Below, one piece after another: positions 6,376 through 45,206 of a DNA stretch of 64,000 bases (position 1 is its first letter; each line of letters starts with the position of its first letter). A program made the position numbers and the translations under genes. Origin of the DNA: Thermothelomyces thermophilus ATCC 42464. Its lineage: Eukaryota > Ascomycota > Sordariomycetes > Sordariales > Chaetomiaceae. The notes under the pieces are model-generated. The model ran no database searches, had not been told where the DNA came from, and saw only the letters and a list, made by a program, of their open reading frames with translations. The DNA is taken from NCBI RefSeq assembly GCF_000226095.1, contig NC_016477.1, forward strand, positions 620,001 through 684,000, read 5' to 3'.

Positions 6376-9300
6376 TTTGCGTCTCTCAGATGAAAGGACC
6401 ACGGCCTCGGATCCTAACGCCGACCGGTATGGTCGTGGCCGGTCGCATTAGTGGAGGATGGCGAAGGGTGTGCCACTCCGAGATGGCAACAGGGCCCATC
6501 ATTTTGAGGGAGGTTCATAGGACCTCCTTGTTCTCAGCCGCCAGGGTCGACGTCGGGTGGTCCTGATGAAGCAGATCCCCTGTCGCCTACCAGGAGAAAG
6601 GGGGGGGAGGGTTGTGATGCAGTGCAGTGCGGTTCGGCGCAGCGTGGTGTGGTGTGGTGTGGCCCACATGCGTAGGTTGTACTGCACGAACGGCGCCCGG
6701 GTTCCCACCGCCAGTTTCCCATTTTTCTTGCTCCCCTTTTTCTTTTTTCTGCGCGGAAAGCCTCCCGAGGGCGTTGGCGCACAGGTGGGCATTCCGAAAA
6801 GCCGGGCGACCAGGGTTTTGAGGCGGTCAGGTCAGAGCGTGGGAGGGGATCGTCTTCTTGTACGGATACGGCTCATGAGGAAAACGGGACAGGCAAAGAG
6901 GTGGGGCTAACCGGTGTTGAGTGTTTATCGGCTGGGCTCGGCTATGCGAGAGGTATATCAACGGGGAGGGAGGCAGAAGGGGGGAGAAGAATGGAGGGGC
7001 CAGCGGGACGAATTGTATGGTTTGATTGGGTGGCATAGAGCACAAGTACATACATACATACACTGTAGACTTGATAAACGAGGCTGTGTGTGATAGACCG
7101 GCCGGATGCGCGGGAGGAGACAAGAGATTGAGATGATGCGAGAGAAGAAGAAGAAGAAGGGTTATGGGGTCGCAGCTTGGCGATCTGGCCGAGTTCCGGT
7201 TTCGTGGAAAACCGTTGTTAGACGCGGGACGGGCCTCCGGCGCCGAGACGGGCTTGGTCGAGCCTCGCTGGGCCAGGCCTGGCATGTGCGTCGACGGCCC
7301 TGTCCATGACTTGATGAATGCCGAGTTCGGCGGGTAGCCACTTGTGCATGTAGGGTTTGTATGTAAGTACTGTACTGTACGTATGTACATACATATGTAC
7401 ATACACCCGGGTAGTGTGGTAGCGACGTCTAGTATTGTACATACATACGAAATACACTGCCCTTTCTCAAACGGGACATGTGCATAAATACACACAAAAT
7501 GGTGGACAATGAATACGGATTTGCCTCCCCGGAATCCCTTTCGTTTTGGTGCCAGGAGACAAGCGAGGAAGCGAGCAACTAGTGTAGGGCGGAGGGGAGC
7601 GGCTCGGCTGTACGCTCCGGCTGGGGCGGCTTGTCATAGTGTAAGTCACAATCCCCTGTCTGTCACTCTGCAGTTGAGGTAAACCTGAGAGCCAAGAAAC
7701 GGCTCTTCCAATCCCCAGCCGGTAACATCACTACTAGTAGCAATATTCTTCAAACATTGACGGAGTGCTGATGGGACCAAGGTGTGGAGATACTCCTCGC
7801 AGACATCGGCGTAGTCTGGGGAGGTGGGTTATCGGGCCGTGTCGACAAAACTTAATTACCCTCAACCTTGGTGTATCTGACAGGGGTTGGGACAGGCTTC
7901 TCCGTGATTATGTCCTCGGGTCGTTGGGAAGAGGTAGTGTACGAGTAATAACGTGCGCTCGAGAGAAGGGAAAATGATGATGTAACGGGCAAGGGGCCTA
8001 GACATGATCTTCCCCAGGGCTGTAGCGGTCCAAGAAGCCTCTTACACCACATAAGACGACCGACGGGCCGAGCATAGAAATCTGGGATGAAAGGAGGGAT
8101 CGCTGATGATCTGCTGTCGAGCGCACGGTCCTGTCGGCCGAAAGCCGAAATGATCTTGGAAAGTGTGATGCCTAGAGTGCGCACCACCGCTGTCCGGCGC
8201 ATGTAAGTCTGGTATCCTGCCAGGGATGCAACCTCAGCCTCTCGGAAGCGCATCCGGCCCGTCGGGTTTATTAGGCTCAGTGTGTGTATTGAGATGGAAA
8301 TCGAGAAATTGATGTGCTGGCTCGGTACGAGAAATCCTGGGATAATACCCACGAGCGTGTCGAGCACCAGCCTTGTCTAAGACTCAATGAGAAAAAAAAA
8401 AGGCCCAACACAAAATGGCCGGCCTAGAGGTGTGGGGATAATGGGCACTCAGTTCCAGGCCACTTTCTGCCGATTATGGCTATATACACTGAACCGGACC
8501 GTACCATGCATGCATGGGCCTGATCCCAAGGTCGGCAGTAATTAATGGCTGCCGAGTAGGCACACCGTTCATGCGGCTTGTTAGTGCTCGATGTGTCGTC
8601 GGTGGTTCAGCGACCTGGAGAAGATGTTGGTGCCAGGCCCTGTTCGATGATGTCGTTGAACTTGACGCATAGGCCATCATTCTGCATAAGGTCGCTCGAG
8701 GTGGCCGCATGCGCCCAGAACCACGAGAGCGGCGGGGAATGTTACCAATCGGACAGGGCACGGCCGCATCTCGGGCTGCAGCCGGGACGGTGATCCGCCA
8801 CGGGTGCGTCGAAACGAATGAGGCTCGGCGGCGTGACAACTGATGGTTTGCTGACCGTGGCTGTCCGGTGGGGATACCAAACACTCGGCCTCAGAATTGA
8901 ATCTTATTCTCAATGTACTGTGACGGAGATGGTAGAGTGATAAGACGGAGTGGTACGCAGAATCTCAATCACTAGCGCCGAGCTGTTAACAGGGGCATCG
9001 GCATTCCATTGTGCTATTAGAGAGTGAGGGTGTCGTGGTCTAGCGTCGACCCCGTCAACATCAAACCACCGGGTTTCGATCGGCGGCCGTGCCAAGTATC
9101 ATGGAAAGCTCATGGAAGCCGCAAGCCCTTGCTCGTGGCATGCCCCGCTGTAGAACTTCCCTGGAAAGTTCTTTGCCGGGGTTGTTGGCTTGGTCCCGGT
9201 TGCCTGCTGCAAACCGACGACATACACTACTCGGTTCACTAGGATCCAAGTTGGCGTAACGGGGCGAGTAGGGATGTTGGACCCATGCTATCAGTCTTCC

Positions 9301-12300
9301 CATTAGTGTCGGGTGTTGTATGTACATACATACGTGCATGACCCGCATTCAGCTTTACAGGAAGTACCAGTACTAGCGCTGAAACAACCGGTGAACGGGA
9401 ATTCACCCCGGGTGCCTGTTCTGAAGAACTGTCGTTAGCATACTAATAGGCGCAGGGGTGAGCTTATGGAACTCCCGTCACAGAAGAGATGTGCTTGCGT
9501 GTCATGACCAAGGCGCAGCAGCGTGGGGTGAAAGGGTGGGAGGGGCACCTCGTTGTGCGGATGCTGATGGTGATTGCCTGGAGTGAGGAGAAAAATTCAA
9601 ATTATGCCTCCCCTGGTTCTTAAAGCAGGCCCGGTCGGTACTTATGGAAGGTGCTAACCTGAAGATCCGGATGACCGGGAGCAGGAGGCAACGTTAACGT
9701 AGCATGCAGCATGCAGGACCTGAAATAAAGTACCTCCTTCCCTAGGAGAAGGTACTGTACATACACACATAGGTATATATACTATCTTAAGTCCATGTAA
9801 GTTACCAATTAGCAATGTACGGAGGAACGAACATGCTACGAGTTTTTGGAGCACCAACCTTGATGCTTAGAGGGCGCAGTATGTAATCCGTACATACATG
9901 CGCTTCCTCATTCCACTAATCATGGGCAGGAGCACGCCTTTCTAGGCAGCTGCTATGCAGTCGATGCCTACTCGGGAAAAAGGCAGCTCCCATTCAGGTA
10001 CCCAGTCTCTATACTATACACTATTTTTAGTTGGCCAGGCCCGGCCCTGTTCACGCCTCACTACCCCACCCACGCGGGGCCTTTCGTCCCTTCCAAACTC
10101 AATTGCGAATGGGTGCCCAACGCCATTTGCACATCGAACTATATTCCCAGCCCCTACTGTCCTAGCGTATGTGCCTAGGTATCTTTGCATTGCGTATGTG
10201 GAAAGCCAAATCATGCAGGGGCGTACGCAGGAGGGAGGAATGTTCGGTTAGGAGCCAAGAAGCTCACTCTCACATGTCTGGTGTTGCCCGTTGGCCCTGT
10301 ATCCCTCAAAACCATCAGACCCTGCCGGCGGGGCAACGTCATCCTGCTCATGTCAAACCACGGCGACCGCACGGACTGACCTTCAGGCACCTGATGGATG
10401 CCGACACGCACCACGGCATGTTCGTGCAGTACCTCACGACAGTTGCTTGACACCGTGCCGAGAGCAACCCGGAGGACATTTCGAGTACCACACCATGTGT
10501 GGTCTTTACATGTACAGTACTTACCTTGGGTAGATCAGGTCAGAAGCTAAGTCTACAGTAGGTGCACACCTATCCGTACCTATACATGTATGAAGGCACA
10601 TGGCTTACTCATAAGCTCGTCGCCTGTAAATGCGGAATACTAAGGTTGGCATAGTACGGTACACTGCCGGCACTGGCTCTGCCGCGACGTGGCGCCTTTA
10701 ACCCGCCTTGTTCTTCTACCAATCCGGGCAGTCGCGGACGTTTCTCGGCTAAAGCACTGTCCTCCCGGAATAATCCGTACATGCAAGGTACCCGTCGTTG
10801 GCGTTGGACACTCAATGTGCGCTGGCCTCGTGCGACTTGAACTGTGGAGGTTTAAAATAAGGCGGACGCGCCGTGCGTTACTCAACCCCTAGGCAGTGAT
10901 TGTTCCTCGCCCCCCTTGCCCCTCTCCTCGTTGGCACCAAAAGACGGGCCCTACGGCCGAAAGATTGCGAAAGGAAAAGGAAGAGAAAAATTGAGCAAAT
11001 GCAACGTCTTTTCTGCGGGTAGCGTGCTTCTCCTGGGCGCCTCGGGTACTCGTCTCAGAGGTCCCAGCCAATGGCTGCGCGTATAGCGTGTCTCAGTCCG
11101 TGCCTCAGCCAAGTGGAGGGCGCAACGGGAATTATTCTAGGTACAGGTCGCCAACCCTGGCACCACCAAAAGTCAAGTCGGTCAGCCCCTCTGTCGCCCG
11201 ATACGGAGTACCATGTCAGCCAAGGATGACGGCTAAACGGTGCTGCTATATCCGTATCAAGCTCTTATAACCCAATCCAGGCGCGAGAGGGACAAAGAAG
11301 GGGTTGCGACCAAGCTGCAAGGGAGCCGTATCAGGAGACGCCGATGGCCGAGTCGCAAGGCTATCCCGGCCAGCAGTGCTGTCATATCTTTTCCCGCATC
11401 CGGCACTGCGCTGCTGGTAGTCGCACAGTCACTGGCTGGATGAAAGCTCGAGGCTGTTTGTTGGTTGCCGTCGACCAAGGCAGGGGGTTCGCTCCAAGAC
11501 TACGCGTGCTGGACTTGGGCAAATAGAGATTTCTTTGCGCTCATTTCCCTTTAGTCGTTTTAAGGTTTTATTTTTTCCTTAATTTCTTTTTTCTTCCTTT
11601 TTTTTCCCCCTTTTGCTGCGAGACAGCACCCAACGTGCCTTAGGTGCTGTAGAATTATTGCATCATTGATTCTTGCCCAAGTGCATGTATGTATGTATGT
11701 ACACACATATGTACAGCGTGGTCCATTTAAACCCCGTCCAGACGCAGTACGGAGTACATACAAAAGGTATGCGCATACAGGACGGAGTACAAAATAACGA
11801 GGTACGTACGCAATGTACTCTGAAAGACAAGCAGGAAGCGGATTTCGGGGTCTCCATGAGCCTTGCTCCCTGTTCCCTGGCCAGCTATGTGTACGCTAAT
11901 CACCGTTCTTAGGATTTTGCTCTGACCCGACCCACCTTGTTTCTTTGAACGTTCGACCCACGGACAGCGCCTGAGCCACCACCAGGGCAGGGCTGGATTG
12001 GATTGCGTACCAAGTAGGCCCGTGAAGCATCCCGAAATCAGGAAGCGAAAACAGAAGCAGGCGGATCCCTCTGCTCACCGGCTCCCTTTTTCGAACCCAT
12101 GCCCGATTTCGGGATCATCCTTTGTCGGCAGACGGAAGCCCCTCCGGTGACGCATATTGCCCGCTCCAAGGTTGTATACTTGTCTCTGGGTCACTCTCGG
12201 GGAAGGCCACGCCATGAAAGCCTGCCCTGTGTGTAGGTATGTATGTACATACATGTCTAACTCCAGGGTAGTGTAAGTTTAGTTATCCGGCCGATCCACG

Positions 12301-13113
12301 AGTCGTCGAGCCGTTTGCCCGTGCTCCCGGGAGGAGCCTCCACCTGCGATTCAAAAGGCCGCCTGCGTCAACGGCTTCCATCTCGTTTGGGTCTGCAACT
12401 TCTCTCATACAGCTTCAGTCTCTTGCCTACACGGTACATACATACTACACTACAATCAGACTCCCGCTGCAGACCTACGTTAGACAAACGACGCCCCCCT
12501 CCTTCGACAACACATTCGCCCTCCCGTCTGCTCGACCGTCACCCACCAACGGTACCAACGGTCGTCTTCTAACATTGGATCTTCCCGCCTCCAGGAGGGT
12601 ACCTCGGCTCTATTTAAGCACCCTCGGTTCACCCTCATCGCGGCCTAGGCTCTGGAAGCAGCCGCATACTTACCGACCTGCCCTACTCGGCTTTACCAGC
12701 TCGGCGCCCTTCCACGTTCCGTGACCCAGGTCGCAAAGAAAGCATTACCGTCATCGAGGCGTGAGTGCGCCATCACTCCGCCGTCCGTTTTGGGGTCGGC
12801 ACTAACACCACCTGAGAAGCAGCGAGGGGCATTCCCACTCCTTTCCTCTTTTGAGAGGCGCGCCTGCAGCACACACCTCGCAACCCCCCTCAAAAAAGTT
12901 AGGGTATCCCTGGCTTGGCTGGGTTCACACCATACCCGAGGGCAGCTACTCTTCGGAGTTACCCATCTTGCCCTACTACGTACCTGACCGACTACTAGTA
13001 CCAGGTACGGTAGTCCTCTTCTTGGGTAGATACCTCACCCACATCCGGTTCGGTGATCCCACCACCTCGACAACCGACGGCCGAGGCGGAGCACAGCGCA
13101 ATCGGAAAACAAG
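6376..13113. other. Gene-poor repeat-rich spacer (about 6.7 kb)
   Basis: No protein gene is convincing. Open frames here are short, overlap on both strands and show no family signature. The stretch holds many copies of GTATGTAC/GTACATAC tetranucleotide motifs (near 7041, 7358-7412, 7436, 9318, 9755, 9885, 11690, 12240), TCCGTAC motifs, and a TGCAGTGCAG/GTGTGGTGTGG run at 6618-6662. The final ~800 bases include a TATTTAA element at 12611-12617 and C/T-rich leader-like sequence leading to the small gene at 13114. Confidence 0.5.
12611..12617 (+). promoter_or_regulatory. TATA-like element upstream of the small Cys-rich gene
   Basis: TATTTAA, about 500 bases before the ATG at 13114, followed by C/T-rich leader-like sequence. 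It is a plausible core promoter for the small gene, but the match is short and could be chance. Confidence 0.3.
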
Positions 13114-13284
13114 ATGGCGCTCGCCAGCTATAGCCAATGCGCCCACTCGTTCGTCATGATCAAGTCTGACAACACCTTGATCGAGTGGAGGTGCCACGAC
13201 TGCCACGACGGCCCGTTCTGGTTCATCTGGGAATGCCGGTACTGCCGGCACCACACGTGCCGGACTTGCATGGACAACGCCTAA
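13114..13284 (+). CDS. Small Cys/His-rich, probably zinc-binding protein (56 aa)
   Basis: A complete 56-codon ORF in good start context (AAGATGG). The protein has three CxxC pairs (C27/C30, C41/C44, C49/C52) plus C9/H11 and several His, enough for two zinc sites. A tryptophan- and aromatic-rich core sits between the pairs (IEWRCHDCH, GPFWFIWECRYC), and the end is TCRTCMDNA. I recall short Sordariomycete proteins of the same WRCxxCHxGPxWFIxECxYC pattern, but I know no function for them. It stands alone in a long gene-poor stretch. The regular spacing of metal-ligand pairs and aromatic residues makes chance unlikely. A further 5' exon cannot be excluded. Confidence 0.75.
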   Translation: MALASYSQCAHSFVMIKSDNTLIEWRCHDCHDGPFWFIWECRYCRHHTCRTCMDNA

Positions 13285-15500
13285 GATCCCCGCGCCGGCA
13301 GCGCCCGCCTGTGCCTACCTAGGGGTACCGACACTCACATGGGTAGGCGGCCCCTTGGGGTGAGGGCGCTGGGGTGCGGGGGAATGGCGAGGTTCGTTCG
13401 TTGCCTGCCGTCGCAAATCTGGGCTTGGATCGGAGAAGACGGTGGAATGTGTGCCCGAGGGAGCGGGAAGAAACCTGGAAAGCGCCTGTCGTTTTCTCGG
13501 TTGCTGTGGACGAGGTGGCCTGGCTTGTCTCGGCAGAGCTTTTGAAGTAGGCAGGTGAGTTTTACGCTGGCAACCCAATCGATCCACCGCTGGAACTGCT
13601 CTCCCCGGTGCGGGACCGTGGCTGCCCAGTTAGGATGGCGTCTGCTCATGTGAGCCAGCCACGGAAGAGACAACAGGGGGGTAAGGAACAGAGAAGCAGT
13701 AAGGAGAAAGGGTTTGCACAATCGTGCTTTCCCATCTCGATTGAGCAAATCCCGTCCAATAGCCTCTTTTCCTGGACAATCCCCAATCGTTGGCCGTGCT
13801 CGAACCCGAAAGCGCGGCTGGGTGCTGACAAGCCGCAGGAGACCCGCAACATAACAACGGCCTGACCACACAGCTGGGACCTCCCAACGCCTTCCAGCAA
13901 ACGACAGGGTGCGAATTGCGACTCCAAAAAGCTCGGATTCTCAAGCGTGCGAGCTAGTCTGGCGCCAACTCTCTTCCACACGCCCTCGTCAGAAAAAGAA
14001 CTCCGATCGTGCGGCGCTCTCCGTTCCTAATCGTTCCCAACATTCCCCCCGCCTGGCACACCAAGTCAGTTCACATGCTCGGTACTTTTAACTCTCACCG
14101 TTTTGCTCCCAAGGAAGCTCCACTACACCGCCATGTCACCATGTACGCGACTTGCAGCAGGACCTTGCTCGCTCCCTTGACACAACACTACGACCACACG
14201 GCTTTTCTTCTTCGTTTGTCTTCTCTTTCCTTTTTATTTTGGTTTCTCTTTTTTCGCCTTTTATCTTTTCTTGTGCACGCATGAGGAGTTTGCGATAGAC
14301 GGATTAAGTTACGGCACTCTCGGTGGGAATAGACTTTAGGGTTCATTGCCCGTGGACGACCACTGGATGGTAACGGATTTGAAGTTTACGGGGGCTGCGG
14401 CCAGTACTTTAGAAGGTGGGGTGGAGGAGGGGGCAGTGATCTTGGCAGGCTGGTGTGTCGGTTACAGGCGTTATCAGAAGAAAAAAAAACGTAAGGTGAA
14501 GAAAAAATAACACAAGGTGTCCAAGACAGAAAGACAATATGAAAATGGCAAGACAATTTGTGCTTAGTTGTTTGCGTTCCTGTTTGGGACGGCATTGTTG
14601 CTTCTTCGATCTTGCAGGCCCCGCTCCTCACCCAAGAGCACCCTCAGATTTCCAAGTTACTGTAAGTGCAGGTGCGCTGTTGTTCCCGAATAATTCCCAT
14701 CACAATGCCTTGCTCTCCACAACATGAGACAGTGTCCGCCCCTCTCGCGCGTAAGATGTCTGGCGCCGGTTGAATGCCAAATCGGGTAAAAGAAACCCTC
14801 TCCCAAGGCTCAATCCAACGCTCGGATGGCCGCAGCCAGAGCATCGCGATTGCTTTCTTCTAGCCAACTGCAGCCGGGACCCAACACAGCTCCAAACAAT
14901 CACGACAAACCAAGGTATACGTCAGCCACCGACCGAGGGAAGAAGAGCTATCATTTGCGGGCGGGGTAAGGGGCTGCCGGCACGTACTTTACTGTACAGA
15001 ATGGTATGATCATAGGTAAAGCTGTAATTATATGCAGCACAAAACTCCCCGCCTTTCGCACCCCTTCACAACCCCGATCTTGTTGTTTCCTTGTCGTCAG
15101 CCTCGGTTTGTGTTCAGGCCGTATATCTACGGAAATACGTGTATATACACTACATGCCGGATGAAATGTATCCCGTGGCCGTTAGACCAGGTATGTCTAC
15201 TTCGCACATTGTACATACATGCAGTACGGTCTACCAGCCTAGTTACGTACGTAGTGTACATACATACATACAGTACACACATGCCCTGATCTCGACTGCA
15301 AAGCTGAGACAGGCCGGTGCCACTGACATATGCATGTATCTACTGCGCTCCGGCGGCTGCTGAAGGGCTCCTCCCGGACCTGTCGACCAGCGGCAGTCGG
15401 TTGGGGCAGCGGACTGTATGTACAAATAGTGTTCGTCCCCTTCTCCGTTGAACAGGGAGTCTCGAGCCGGCTACGGATATGCCTGATTGTTATCTGTGTG

Positions 15501-15501
<1 letters not shown>

Positions 15502-15537
<36 letters not shown>

Positions 15538-15540
15538 CGC
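15502..15540. repeat. (GT)n microsatellite
   Basis: Nearly pure GT dinucleotide run, degenerating into GTGCGTGCGC and shorter GT runs to about 15562. Confidence 0.95.
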
Positions 15541-16555
15541 GCGTGTGTGTGTTCGTGTGTTGTGGCCCGGTCGCACAAATACACGATCCGATTTGAGCGG
15601 GTTTTGCTCCGATGGCCGCCAATGGTTGGCTGCTGCTGCGACGGCTACTACTGCTGTTGGGGGGCTGTCTCTGCGGTAGGCTGAACCCTGAATTTGCCGT
15701 GAATTTGCTGGCCGAGAGCCCTTTTCCTCAACTGCCCGATCCAGACGAATGGCACGAACCGGCGAGGCGGTGATTGGCGGGGGCCGGCGGCGCATGGTTC
15801 GATTATGTCTCTGATTTGGGCGTCAACTTGCAGCAATCTTGTTCGTGTGCATTAGTGTAACAGCATGGTAGGCCAGAGAGGATAAGGGTGAGTGAGCGAG
15901 ATCCGACGATGGCAGAGAGGTTAACACAGGCCCGGACGTACATACGAATCTAGGGATGCGGTCACCGAGGACGATTGTCGAACCTGCCAGCACCACCAAC
16001 CTGCTTCGTCTGCACCACCTGAACCTATGGTAAAGAATTGAGTGTTACTTGTTGCGTAGTTATTTATACGGCCGTATTCGCCATGACCATTGCCATGCGA
16101 CGTAGTGATCCTGTTGACAACGTTCAGTCCCCGGTTGTATTTGGCTTGTTTGTGGAATAACTCAGAGTCTGTAATCCGGATTCCGTACGTTAGATCCTCT
16201 GCACTGGGAGGTTGCAACCTCGGGTGACGACCCTCTTGCTTCGGCCTGTCCTTCTGGAACCCGCCGTGCCGCTCAAACCGACAGATCTCCCGTCGGATAT
16301 TCCCAGGCTGTTCCATACATGGCCGACTCAATCTGAAACATGAACGTGAGGCGTCTCCTGTCACGATGCATGTATGTACACTAATCCGTACAGATAGTGT
16401 ACGAGGTATGATGGGTAAGTTTGACCCCCTGTCTGGGTATTAACAGGGGGCTTGACAGGCGGGCGTAGGCAGGCGCAGGCAGGAAAAACTGGTGGTAGAG
16501 GCCTGAGAGGTTTTTCCGAGAGATCCCTGTCGGTACCTGTGCAGGGGGTGAAACT

Positions 16556-16976
16556 TTGGCTCGCAACCATAGTATGTATGTGCATACACGGCCTGCCCTA
16601 ATCCACTGTGGCTGCATTGGACTAGCCCGATTTGTCAGAACCTGCAGCTTGGGCGGGTTGAGCATTGCGACCCCGAGACCTTCCAGGTTTGTGGAGGGTT
16701 TGCGGGCTCAACCAAGAGCTCCGGGGGGTGGAAAGTCGGATCGAAGAGAGCCGGAAGTGCACGGCCTGTTGATGAGGCCGGAAGTGGATCTCCTAGAGGT
16801 GATATGTCGCAAGCAACAACAAGTTGCCGACGCCAACAGTTGAACCAAATTGTTTGGGCCACTTATTCGACGCGGCGTCATCCCCGGCAATCCAGCGCAC
16901 CAAGCCGGGCTCTGCCTTCGCGCCGGCGTTGGGCTTCTTGTCGATGAGATTAAGGAACAAAAGTACGTATGCATGA
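16556..16976 (+). pseudogene. Relic-like coding tract, family unknown
   Basis: One forward frame stays protein-like across about 420 bases apart from a single in-frame TGA at 16841-16843. Before it reads MRPEVDLLEVICRKQQQVAD; after it reads LFGPLIRRGVIPGNPAHQAG and GVGLLVDEIKEQ. Directly after this comes GTACGT, then a GCTAAC branch-like motif and a CGCAG acceptor at about 17039, all features of a fungal intron. Joining across that intron gives a stop within two codons. I do not recognise the family. It may be a decayed gene, a gene whose other introns I missed, or chance. Confidence 0.25.
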
Positions 16977-18197
16977 GACGAGTTGCTACAGTTGCGGCAT
17001 CGAGCTAACCGCGAGCTCCGTACTATCTTTGACCGCAGCGGTTGAAGGCCAGTAGCGCTTGTACATATAACTGCTGTTGCCGGATCCGTGTGCTTCGTTA
17101 GCGCTAACCGTATCGAGTCGACGGCTCTTGAGCCTCATTCATCATGATGATGGACCTAGATATTCTTGGCTTTAAATTAAGCCTCTCGCCCTCGACGCGC
17201 TAGGCAAACTCTTCCGTTCACCTTCCGGCTGGAGGGCATGATTGAGCCGGATCAGATCCCGCAGAACGTGGCCAATCTAATCCGTGCGTGCCCCTCCTCT
17301 ATCGCTGGAGGGCCCGACGTACCTGGCGATCATTTGCGCCCCTGGTTTCGTGAGCCAGGACTCGAGCATTCAGTAGACGGACCGTGTCTTGAGCGTGGGA
17401 GGTGTGGCCAAGGCTAAACTCTCCTGCAAACAAGCAGAGATTGAGTTCGGGACATTTTCGGCTCATCGTCGGCGTCCCAGGTGCGGCGGCGTGCCGATCG
17501 AGACTCCAAGTAGTCCAATCACTTTCCCCTCAGGAATGCGCGATGACTCGACTCTGACACCATCCCTCAACTTCCTTTAACTTCTTCTCCGTATGCGGCA
17601 AGGTGCACGTGTAGGTTATTCTCAAAGCCGTTCTCGCTTGAGCTTGGCAGTACCGGGGTCCCTGCTTGGCCCAGGCTTCCAGAATCCCTCAAAGTTAAGA
17701 ACCCTTTGGTGACTTCGGACCGATAGGTTGGACAAGCTGATTGTGTTGCAGTCGTCTGAACAGGGCCGATTCGAAAGAGTTTTCCGCTCCTTCCTAAAAA
17801 ATACAATTTGTACAGTGAAGCGGCTTCCTGGCCATTGGCGATATGGAGGAGGTATTCCTGTGAGACAGCTTAGCATGTAAGCGACGGAGCTGAGTCCATG
17901 GCGTTCAACTACGCAGTATCCGTAAGCGAATTAGAACGTTCGGCTCTTGGCTCACTAAGCCGGAACAGTGATTAGGGTCATTTTGTCATTACGCTAAGTA
18001 CACGAGGGCGGTGAGGTTTGCGCCTCGATGTGTGTGGTTGAGGGTTCAGGTTGATGAAAGAAATAGCAATTTTGGGCGGTGCCGGAACCTGCAGGAAGGG
18101 AAGCTCTGGCTGTACCCGCAGCGGGGAAATTGAGCAGTTGCGGGGCAGACGCGGGGAAGCTCTGGTCCCTTACACTTACACTACACTAGAGAGGTAT

Positions 18198-18231
18198 GTA
18201 CGGATTACATACGTATGTATGTAATCCGTAC
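18198..18231. repeat. Perfect 14-bp inverted repeat with 6-nt loop
   Basis: Arms GTACGGATTACATA (18198-18211) and TATGTAATCCGTAC (18218-18231) are exact reverse complements around a 6-nt loop. The element sits inside a longer run of GTATGTA/TACATAC and TCCGTAC motifs (18190-18260), the same words dispersed through the other spacers of this window. Confidence 0.9.
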
Positions 18232-19307
18232 TCCGTACATATGTATGTATGTACATACCTTATCTAAGGGACGGTATCCGTTATAAACCCATTGACGTAC
18301 AGAACAGATTACTTTCGAAATGTGATGTGTATGGACCTGATGTATGTAGGTACCTAAAGTAGATATACATACATTCATTACATCTACTATATTTTTTTTT
18401 CGTGTGGGATGCATCACTCCCGAAAAGTCCAAGGCTTAACTTACGCTATAACCCTGCATGTGGAAGGTATAACACTTGTAGTGCGAAGTATGTACGGATT
18501 ATCTATTACATACATACCTGGTTCCCAAAACACCGAAAACCACAACCTCATGCCAGCACATGTTGGGTTCTTCAAAACTCTACTGCTCGACTAATCAAGG
18601 CGGGACTGAGCGAAGCGAATGACTGCTGAGCAAGATTGGGGAAGTACTCGAACATTTGTAGTGGAAGCCCCTAGCGAAACGCGTCCCACGTCTTCCATAT
18701 CCCCATTTCTGTGTAGAGCATCGGCGGTAGAGACGAACTTGATTAATGCGACTTAAGCGCCCGAAATAACCCTCGTTCATATCTGGACGCATACACAGAG
18801 AACAAGGAACTGACAGAGGACCGACGGTCCAGTATCGCTGATGCGAAGGCTCTTTGTGCGCCTACGACCATTTGCCGCCACAGCACTCCCGTATATACCT
18901 AGGTACAATCCCCGTGATGGTCAGGCACCCTCGGTATTGAGGTAGTAGTCTGTGTAACTGATCATGCTCACTTGCATGCCGATATGTCCCGTGCCCCTCC
19001 CTGGGCGTTGCGGGTTGGGCACGCGCTGCAAGCAACGGCGAGGATTGTCGCATGAGCACCACGGCTTTGGGGATTAGCATAGTACCTCAAGAACAAGCCG
19101 TTTTCTGACTCTAATGTGAGTTAATTAATTGTTGGCTGAGTGTCATGTTGTTGAACCCTCTGTTGTGAGGCAGAAACGGAACTGCAGATGATATGCTCGG
19201 ACATGGGATATTGAGGGGGAGAAGACTGTGGACCGTGGCTTCCTACCTCTACCATAAATTCACATTACTTTCGTAGGCCGAGTTGCCACCAGAGACTTGT
19301 CGTCAGC

Positions 19308-20611
19308 CTACAGCACTGCCTCAAATGCAATGAGAGGAATCCTTTGATTAGGTGATAAGGGCCGGGAGTTCTCTGCCCTTAACCCGTTATCTGTAGACAT
19401 CGGACTGCTGGCTTCCTCGGCGACAATGAGATGAGCAACAATATCACGCGTAGGAGTGTTCAATTGCCTACGGCTCTTCTTGCTGCCACTTGGTATATTC
19501 AGTCCTCTGACAAAGAATTCGGACGGGCAAGTTCCCAAACACGCGGGTACCAACCGTGATTCTGCAACACGGTGTCACTGTTGAAACCCACGTGGCAGCG
19601 TGGCCTATATAGTCGGCATTCTTTGTATCACTCAAAGAGCCAACAGCGTTGTTCCATTGTGTTGACGACCATCGCCTTCGCAAACTGGCCGTGTTTATGT
19701 TTCCCCTCTCGAGGTCTTGAGGCATAAAGGCGCACCATATCATAAAGTGGAAAGAGACAGCTACGCTGCGACATCAAGTATCCATTGTGAGAGGAGAAGC
19801 TTGGTATTTGCGTTGATTTTGTCTCAGACAACAGCAGCTTCGTAGCCTTTACACACGCATGTCTTTTCCATGTCTCAGCCAATTCCGATTAGTAGTACAA
19901 CACACTCCTTGGTGAATCGGGTTGGGGTAGAAGAATACGCAGTCTGCAACTTCGAGTAGACAGTGTCGGCTGACCCGAACAATACGAGTCTGGCAGCTGC
20001 ATTGCATCATTCCACAGAATGGGAAGAAGACCACATGACAGTGCGCTGTTCGACGGCGGCGTCCCGGCGTCCGAAACCATCATACAAAGTAATTTGCTGT
20101 GCACACCACCGCTGAATTCTTTTTACGCAGCAACTCTACGGTATCTCCACCAGCTCGGGCCGACGGTGTTTACTTTTATGTCCTTTCAGGGCCCCGTTTT
20201 CAGGCCGCTCGGAGAGAAACCGCAGCCCGCGTGAAGAGACTCGTCATCTGTTCCTACCTCGGGCGGCACGCTGAAAGCATCAATTAGGCCATGTGGGAAC
20301 ATCCCGTATCCCTCTGAGATTCCCATAGGGTCGTCACTGCCACCTGCAGGTATCACGAACATGCTGTCGGACGGCATAAGCAAAGAGTCTGTAGCCTCCT
20401 CCTCAAATGGAACGCCGGAATACCGAGGCGTTGAAAGAGAGAATATCAACGCGGTCACTAATGCAGTTATAAACACAACATCCTCTAGAGCTCGTCCATC
20501 TCTTTTTATGTTCCTTTGCCTCGCTGTCATCTTCGAGAGCAAGTATATACACGGTGACCCTCCAGCCCCTCGGTCCCTGACTCCGTTTACGAACAACGAC
20601 AATACTAGCAC
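19308..20611 (-). pseudogene. Possible multi-exon or decayed minus-strand coding region, unknown
   Basis: The minus strand opens with a protein-like segment (20611 down to about 20258) with a hydrophobic stretch, VVFITALVTALIFSLSTPRY, then SDDPMGISEGYGMFPHGLID, and a good donor (GAG|GTAGGA) at 20257. Further protein-like pieces follow in other frames (KSTQIPSFSSHNGYLMSQRS near 19.8 kb; RDIVAHLIVAEEASS near 19.4 kb, ending with a stop at 19308). I could not connect them into one clean model and do not recognise a family. It overlaps, antisense, the possible first exon of the GH76 gene. It could be a single-pass membrane or secreted protein gene, a decayed gene, or coincidence. Confidence 0.25.
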
Positions 20612-20614
20612 ATA

Positions 20615-21814
20615 ATGGTGGCCATACGATGGGGCAGCCTCGTAGTTCGGGCTACTTGTTTCACATCATCACTTAGAGGCCCATGCCGCGAGAAAGCAAT
20701 TGCAGCCGAGCACTCACTGGAAGCAGCCAAGGCGCTCCAAGGCTGGTACGATGCCCCGTCGGGGCTGTGGAGCACAACGGGCTGGTGGAACAGCGCAAAC
20801 TGCCTTACTGTCCTCGCCGACTGGGCGCTGAGCGCCGGAGCCGCCGCTAAAAGCTTGGATGTCCCTAAAATCATCGCCAACACGTTCAATAACGCCCAGC
20901 GAGTGTCTGTGACAGCGCAGAAGAGGGTAGCTGCGACTGGCTTGGCCACATCCACCTACCATTTTGACCACCAGGGAAAGCGGGGATTCTCCCAGTTCAT
21001 CAACAACTACTACGATGATGAGGGCTGGTGGGCGCTCGCCCTGATCAGGTCGTGGGACGTAACCCACGACCAGGCCTACCTCGACATGGCCGAGCGCATC
21101 TTTGAGGACATGCAAGCTGGCACGGACGATAGGTGTGGCGGCGGTATTTGGTGGAGCAAGGAGAAGCAGTACAAGAACGCCATCGCAAATGAGTTGTACC
21201 TCAGCGTGGCTGCCAGCCTCGCCAACCGCATCCCCGACAAGAAACAGAGGTACGAGCAACTCGCCAAGGACGAGTGGGTGTGGTTCAAGGACAGCGGGAT
21301 GATCAACAAGAACAACCTCATCAACGACGGGCTCGCCATCGACGTCAACGGCAGATGCACCAACAACGGCCTGACCACGTGGTCGTACAATCAGGGCGTC
21401 GTGCTGGGCGGCCTGGTCGAGCTCGCCAACGCCACGGGCGACCCGTCGTACCTGGGTGAGGCGACGGCCATCGCGAAAGCAGCTGTCGAGCTTCTCAGCG
21501 ACGAAAATGGCATCATTCGCGAGGCGGACCGGTGCGAGCCCGACTGTGGTGCAGACGGCAGCCAGTTCAAGGGCATCTTCGTGCGCAACTTGCATTACCT
21601 GCAGCGAGCGGCTCCACAGGATGCATTCCGGACGGCGATCCAGAAGAATGCCGACTCAATCTGGGCGAATAACCGGAACGGCAAGAACCAATTCGGCATC
21701 CAGTGGGCCGGGCCGGCAGACGTGGGTAACGGACCGAACGCTGCGACGCATAGCTCGGCGATGGACGTGATCGTTGCGGCGTTGGCGATTGGCCGGCAGG
21801 GTCGGTTTAGATAA
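20615..21814 (+). CDS. Glycoside hydrolase family 76 (endo-alpha-1,6-mannanase-like)
   Basis: GH76 enzymes cleave alpha-1,6-mannan backbones; fungal members act on cell-wall mannan outside the cell. The body of this 399-codon frame matches the family: GWYDAPSGLWSTTGWWNSAN near residues 43-62, the catalytic Asp-Asp pair in NNYYDDEGWWALA (D134/D135), CGGGIWWSKEKQYKNAIANE, TTWSYNQGVVLGGLVELANA, and a C-terminal GPADVGNGPNAATHSSAMDV. The residues before about position 25 do not look like a signal peptide, so the true N-terminus is probably spliced in from upstream. One option is an exon with ATG at 20361 or 20508 joined by an intron near 20543-20676. No GPI signal is visible, so it differs from the Dfg5/Dcw1 type. 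The family call is strong; the start is uncertain. Confidence 0.85.
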   Translation: MVAIRWGSLVVRATCFTSSLRGPCREKAIAAEHSLEAAKALQGWYDAPSGLWSTTGWWNSANCLTVLADWALSAGAAAKSLDVPKIIANTFNNAQRVSVTAQKRVAATGLATSTYHFDHQGKRGFSQFINNYYDDEGWWALALIRSWDVTHDQAYLDMAERIFEDMQAGTDDRCGGGIWWSKEKQYKNAIANELYLSVAASLANRIPDKKQRYEQLAKDEWVWFKDSGMINKNNLINDGLAIDVNGRCTNNGLTTWSYNQGVVLGGLVELANATGDPSYLGEATAIAKAAVELLSDENGIIREADRCEPDCGADGSQFKGIFVRNLHYLQRAAPQDAFRTAIQKNADSIWANNRNGKNQFGIQWAGPADVGNGPNAATHSSAMDVIVAALAIGRQGRFR

Positions 21815-44178: not shown

Positions 44179-45206
44179 GGCGATGGTGCTGAACGAGGCA
44201 GAGAAACAGAACACGGACGAAACACGGCCTGGCCAACGCCCATTTATCGGGGTAAATGAGGTTCTAGAGCTTCCATGGCGCTGGGAGCTGTTCTTCGGTT
44301 GACTGAGTCGAGGAGAAGGTACGGCATCTATCCAAAACAACCGGGGTTTGCCCGTTGCGAGTGTTGGGTCTGAGCACACAGCAGCTCGCTAACTATTCAG
44401 GCGGGGCTGGCCATTGGGGAGGGGAGGGAAGCGGAGGGTGGCCCACAGGGATATCGGAGATCGGCAGCACCTTCAGGTCGTGCAGATCGCTGCGGTTGCT
44501 TTACACTAAAAAAAGATTTTGGAGGTCAGGATCGCAGGGACTAGCGGAGCGTTAAAGAAGGCTGGATGAAGTGTTGCGAGGTCATCGGGAGAAGAGAACC
44601 GATCATCTGCAACCGGATAGGCGATAAATTGCTCGGCTAGTTGTGCTCTGCGCCTTCCCGTGCTTGCATGCTCTAAAAGTCTCAACCCGAGACTGAGGAT
44701 TTCACGGTTCGCTTTCGGATCGATCGCACCCGAGAGCGAACCGTATGCTGCCGGGTAAAAGAAAGAGAGTTAGGTTCATTGAGACTCCCGATTCAAGAAA
44801 AAAAAGAAAGAACGACAAGCATGAAAAACGACATCCAGATGTTCTCTGCATGCTGCGATCGGCTTGCTCCGAGACGCTAGTGTACTATGTAGACTAACAC
44901 TAGTGACTAACTAGCTAGGACAGCCCCCGAACCGTTCGAGAGGTTCGCTAAGGATGGGCGGTCTTGGCCTCCGGGGGAAATCTCCCGGCCACGTGGAGGC
45001 AGCCTGAACAGGCAACCCCGCACAGGAAACCTCAACCGGAATCGAACCCCTGCAGGCACGCTAGTCATGCCCTGCAACCCCCGAACATGAAATCGCGTCT
45101 GTGCGCGCCTCAAGAGCTCCGCCCAATTCTCCAATCACAACAGGCTCCGGCGACTGGCCGAGAGCAACAGAAAACACCAGCCCCGCAAACAGCAACCATC
45201 ATCGCC
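44179..45206. other. Divergent intergenic region upstream of NSE1
   Basis: No gene seen. It should carry promoters for the membrane-protein gene (minus) and NSE1 (plus). In-frame sequence upstream of 45207 is open but leader-like. A tRNA-like box near 45036 was checked and rejected. Confidence 0.5.

Follow-up and report, generated by a model that had tools for sequence, protein, structure and literature searches.

A candidate 56-residue cysteine- and histidine-rich protein gene in a sparsely coding stretch of the Thermothelomyces thermophilus genome

Does a 56-codon open reading frame (ORF) that stands far from any long coding signal in Thermothelomyces thermophilus encode a protein, and, if so, of what kind? 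The ORF lies in the window analysed here, a stretch of 64,000 nucleotides of contig NC_016477.1 (positions 620,001 to 684,000), whose own numbering is used below. To its left, long coding signal runs out near 6.4 kb, behind a gene of the PPIP5K/Vip1 type (PPIP5K2_N and His_Phos_2 matches). On the right, the next long coding signal is a GH76 ORF at 20615, followed by TBCD. The spacing between these signals is about 14 kb, and we refer to it as the desert. The genome of the species, formerly placed in Myceliophthora, comprises 38.7 Mb, sequenced telomere to telomere (PMC4761134), in 7 chromosomes (PMC4061905).

Reading frame, product and codon usage

The ORF opens with an ATG, closes with a TAA at 13282-13284 and encodes, without interruption, a product of 56 amino acids and 6.7 kDa (MALASYSQCAHSFVMIKSDNTLIEWRCHDCHDGPFWFIWECRYCRHHTCRTCMDNA). 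Upstream, its frame is closed by an in-frame TGA at 13054, 19 codons 5' of the ATG. The product contains seven cysteines (positions 9, 27, 30, 41, 44, 49 and 52), five histidines (11, 28, 31, 46 and 47) and eight aromatic residues. The original prediction gave the coordinates exactly, together with the length, the three CxxC pairs and C9/H11, and omitted H46/H47, which are contained in the segment C41-x2-C44-x-H46-x2-C49-x2-C52. The candidate metal ligands are C9, H11, C27, C30, C41, C44, H46 (or H47), C49 and C52. The highest hydropathy over 15 residues is 0.98, with no strongly hydrophobic stretch; by hydropathy alone, neither a signal peptide nor a membrane span is suggested.

Table 1. Features of the 56-codon locus, in window coordinates
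Feature	Position	Strand	Basis
ATG-free stretch 5' of the start	12254..13113	+	longest with GC of at least 0.5, both strands, 264 kb
TATA-like TATTTAA, candidate promoter element	12611..12617	+	consensus match only
Candidate 62-nt leader intron, GTGAGT ... CTAAC ... CAG	12761..12822	+	strict pattern match
56-aa Cys/His-rich ORF (CDS with stop)	13114..13284	+	translation, codon statistics, shuffles
Core W25-x-C27-x2-C30-x10-C41-x2-C44-x-H46-x2-C49-x2-C52	13186..13269	+	putative two-zinc module with C9/H11
Very stable stem-loop, 94 nt	13288..13381	+	predicted fold

Codon composition argues for coding. G or C occupies the third position in 51 of the 56 codons, against 101 of the 168 bases overall (hypergeometric P 1.2e-9). 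GC content at the three positions is 0.41/0.48/0.91, and the pattern is present in both halves of the ORF and weaker outside it: 0.58/0.53/0.79 in frame over the 57 nt on the 5' side. Read-through past the stop was considered and rejected, the 86-codon frame that stays open there having values of 0.58/0.66/0.70, which are not strongly coding-like. The synonymous-codon score is the highest among the 78 ORFs of 40 or more amino acids in the desert. In a 264-kb stretch with 424 ORFs of 40-100 amino acids clear of the 21 training ORFs, it ranks third, behind two ORFs of 86 and 97 amino acids. Some of the codon evidence counts against the gene, however. The high third-position GC partly continues beyond the ORF (0.79 in frame on the 5' side, 0.70 on the 3' side), and the antisense frame at 13128-13271 is likewise open, with a GC3 of 0.89. 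In the codon scoring of the desert, the ORF is exceeded in total by a 104-aa ORF at 13335-13649 (-) and in mean by 16986-17138 (-).

The arrangement of cysteines and histidines is rare in randomised sequence. The pattern C..C.{6,16}C..C.H..C..C, which was written after inspection of the sequence, appeared in none of 500 dinucleotide shuffles of 7501-20100, and neither did any ORF of at least 50 amino acids with a GC3 of at least 0.9. A looser pattern of three CxxC pairs was recovered in 1 of 500 shuffles of the desert, and cysteine richness alone (at least 7 per 56 residues in an ORF of at least 50 amino acids) in 22 of 500. When the motif is widened slightly, the six frames of 264 kb contain it a single time, in the ORF described here.

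Predicted zinc-binding fold

The ligands make a two-zinc fold plausible. The reading that we prefer, and to which we give a probability of roughly 55% as a whole, is that the ORF belongs to a plus-strand gene with an ATG-free, once-spliced leader and would encode a small intracellular microprotein that binds two zinc ions and serves as an adaptor or competitor. Judging by ligand spacing alone, the first zinc would be held by the knuckles C27/C30 and C41/C44, and the second by C9 or H11 together with H46, C49 and C52. The aromatic loop GPFWFIW between the knuckles would form the binding face. An adaptor or competitor that binds protein or RNA through this loop seems the most likely role; an enzymatic one does not.

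In spacing, the protein resembles the RanBP2-type zinc finger (PF00641). These fingers follow the spacing W-x-C-x(2,4)-C-x10-C-x2-C, with a conserved Asn after x3 from the second Cys, and carry their binding residues in the loop between the knuckles. The leading Trp and the spacing are matched by W25, C27, C30, C41 and C44, and GPFWFIW is located where the fingers hold their binding residues. The position of the Asn, in contrast, is occupied by Pro34, and the protein has C9/H11 and H46/C49/C52 in addition. The PF00641 profile does not match the protein; it finds 7 places in the genome, none of them at the ORF. Among Pfam profiles, the Lunapark zinc ribbon (PF10058) alone gives any signal, with an E-value of 0.15 and 12.2 bits, which is half of the curated cut-off (24.2 bits) and comes from an alignment of residues 7-31 alone. 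A 48-aa part of the protein scores 12.8 bits, likewise under the cut-off, and in the genome PF10058 finds a single place, elsewhere on the same contig and not at the ORF.

The main rival accepts the same gene and assigns it a different fold, a cross-brace of the C1/DC1/ZZ kind that would use H11, C27/C30, C41/C44, H46/C49 and C52 and read a peptide or a lipid head group. In cross-brace fingers of these families the Cys and His pairs follow a similar order. The eight ligands are indeed ordered H-C2-C2-HC-C, and C-x2-C-x10-C-x2-C-x4-C-x2-C is near the ZZ spacing. The loops are shorter than in ZZ, C1 and DC1 fingers and the last ligand pair is absent. ZZ fingers end in a C-terminal His pair, and here no His follows C52. 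The protein stops 4 residues past C52, and therefore leaves no room for that pair. The profiles also speak against a cross-brace: the ZZ profile PF00569 lists 7 places in the genome and the DC1/C1 profile PF03107 (C1_2) lists 3, none of either set at the ORF and none of the latter above the cut-off. We regard the cross-brace as unlikely, though it deserves more weight than any of the other alternatives.

Leader, promoter and post-stop hairpin

In our preferred reading of a two-zinc microprotein, the plus strand would be transcribed, with its promoter near 12.6 kb, and the leader would be long, free of ATG and probably spliced once. The sequence features suggest a leader of roughly 0.45 kb. The ORF's start context (CANN-ATGGC or [AC]A[ACG]N-ATGGC, patterns composed after the site had been seen) is common to 22 of the 1569 plus-strand ATGs in the surrounding 108-kb GC-rich island. 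The nearest plus-strand ATG on the 5' side is 861 nt away, a distance with a probability of 0.0038 in a local Markov simulation. The description of this stretch as the longest is restricted to a GC content of at least 0.5, because AT-rich blocks carry ATG-free stretches of up to 1651 nt and exceed it in raw length.

The candidate leader intron ends about 290 nt before the ATG. Its strict pattern (GTGAGT-CTAAC-CAG), also composed after the site had been seen, has 6 matches on the two strands of 108 kb, with this one the only match in the desert; the expected rate on one strand is 0.014 per 500 nt. With a looser form of the pattern the desert yields 21 matches, which counts against the preferred reading. 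The original prediction had offered extensive untranslated leaders as one explanation of the long spacers, and the ATG-free stretch and the intron-like sequence fit this, as a prediction from sequence alone. Its central claim, that a small protein-coding gene is hidden here, finds strong support in the codon periodicity, the start context, the ATG-free leader and the intron-like sequence within it. We consider it highly probable that 13114-13284 is a real gene.

The stem-loop behind the ORF could be part of the 3' untranslated region. Its first paired base is the fourth after the stop codon, with 3 unpaired bases between. The 102 nt from 13285 to 13386 fold with -62.1 kcal/mol, compared with -48.9 +/- 3.9 after shuffling (z -3.4), and one shuffle in 200 does as well; a repeat of the calculation gave a z of -3.1. 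The complement folds more weakly (-51.4, z -2.5). Among 10650 sampled window folds, the hairpin is third by raw energy. It is notable rather than unique, because it is only 16th by the GC-corrected score, its z is just -2.2 in the longer segment 13250-13400, and it is absent from the 6 pairs reported by an inverted-repeat finder. No second DNA copy of it was found.

The hairpin directly 3' of the stop also bears on a further alternative, that the ORF is a translated regulatory or leader ORF, or an exon of a larger unrecognised transcript, and not a free-standing protein gene. This would also suit the long intergenic space on either side and the 86-codon frame that stays open past the stop. It is opposed by the in-frame stop upstream, by the weaker codon periodicity outside the ORF and by the distance of about 7 kb to the next long coding signal downstream, and we think it improbable.

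Relatives and surroundings

That no relative was found in its own genome or in viral and prokaryote collections counts against the preferred reading of a two-zinc microprotein. In the 38,744,216 bases of the 7 contigs of this genome, the whole protein matched only itself, and no second copy was found. A match of the 30-residue core on contig C3 (E 0.05, 41%) was rejected: its frame lacks the upstream CxxC, and mainly a His run and TCQTC are in common. A further small open frame that contains Cys (MCLKYTDYHQCGHPQG...) lies near it, at L003:2565-2795 (+). Scans of viral and prokaryote collections turned up 8 and 10 pattern matches, respectively, and no relative; these scans begin from short peptide patterns, reach close relatives only and say little about fungi. 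No Pfam or NCBIfam model scored above its cut-off, PDB sequences gave no match, and among PHROGs there was one family of unknown function with an E-value of 0.39. A literature search, which included passages of PMC4761134 and PMC4061905, found no description of the gene in the text it covered.

Because none of the places that the RanBP, ZZ, Lunapark and DC1 profiles find in the genome is this one, we file the protein under no named family. Very likely this is a real gene, whose product corresponds to no family described in the libraries that the search covered. A broader proposal, which we put forward tentatively and consider doubtful as a whole, is that it represents a lineage-restricted, free-standing two-zinc microdomain without a described family, overlooked for its size. 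It would be expressed from a 14-kb regulatory territory of its own, with a leader that is spliced and free of ATG, and the strong post-stop hairpin would control the mRNA.

Two other accounts of the product fare worse. A metallothionein-like peptide for metal storage or redox would be in keeping with 7 Cys and 5 His among 56 residues, but metallothioneins are unlike proteins that are rich in aromatics, with regular CxxC spacing and a hydrophobic core, and the eight aromatics, the regular spacing and the hydrophobic core found here make such a peptide quite improbable. A chance open frame without a product, for which the lack of homologues in the collections searched and the 22 of 500 shuffles with equal cysteine richness could be cited, is the least probable account, given the codon periodicity, the failure of 500 shuffles to produce the motif and upstream features that are independent of codons (the ATG-free leader, the start context and the intron-like sequence).

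The interest of the two-zinc microprotein gene hinges on its conservation. If conserved, it would be a short gene of the kind lost to length cut-offs, in an industrially used thermophilic fungus, encoding a compact zinc module of a size within reach of direct synthesis and structure work, and would account for part of what looks like a 14-kb desert of genes. Even without conservation, it offers a test case for the calling of very short genes from leader features and codon usage.

The ORF had been predicted to sit alone in about 14 kb. This holds for long coding signals; short segments at 7.2, 8.6 and 16.9 kb score like the ORF itself. In a crude scan of codon log-odds across the desert, the ORF reaches 13.8, compared with 12.7 for 7221-7331 (+), 12.8 for 8634-8738 (-) and 16.7 for 16862-16948 (-), so that it is not the top of the desert. 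Because these short segments score about as high as the ORF, further short exons are possible. The top-scoring segment, 16862-16948 (-), is a stretch of 29 codons.

Rfam models at their gathering scores had no match in the window, and ARAGORN (bacterial code) found no tRNA. A TG dinucleotide array of 36 copies lies inside the desert at 15495-15564, and the segments 18181-18282 (+) and 44653-44754 (+) are strongly structured (shuffle z -4.9 and -5.6). The window sits in a GC-rich island flanked by AT-rich blocks with a GC content of about 0.30-0.43 (C6:520001-592000 and C6:704001-784000, C6 being the contig of the window). These blocks hold long ATG-free stretches and look as would be expected of RIP-mutated repeats.
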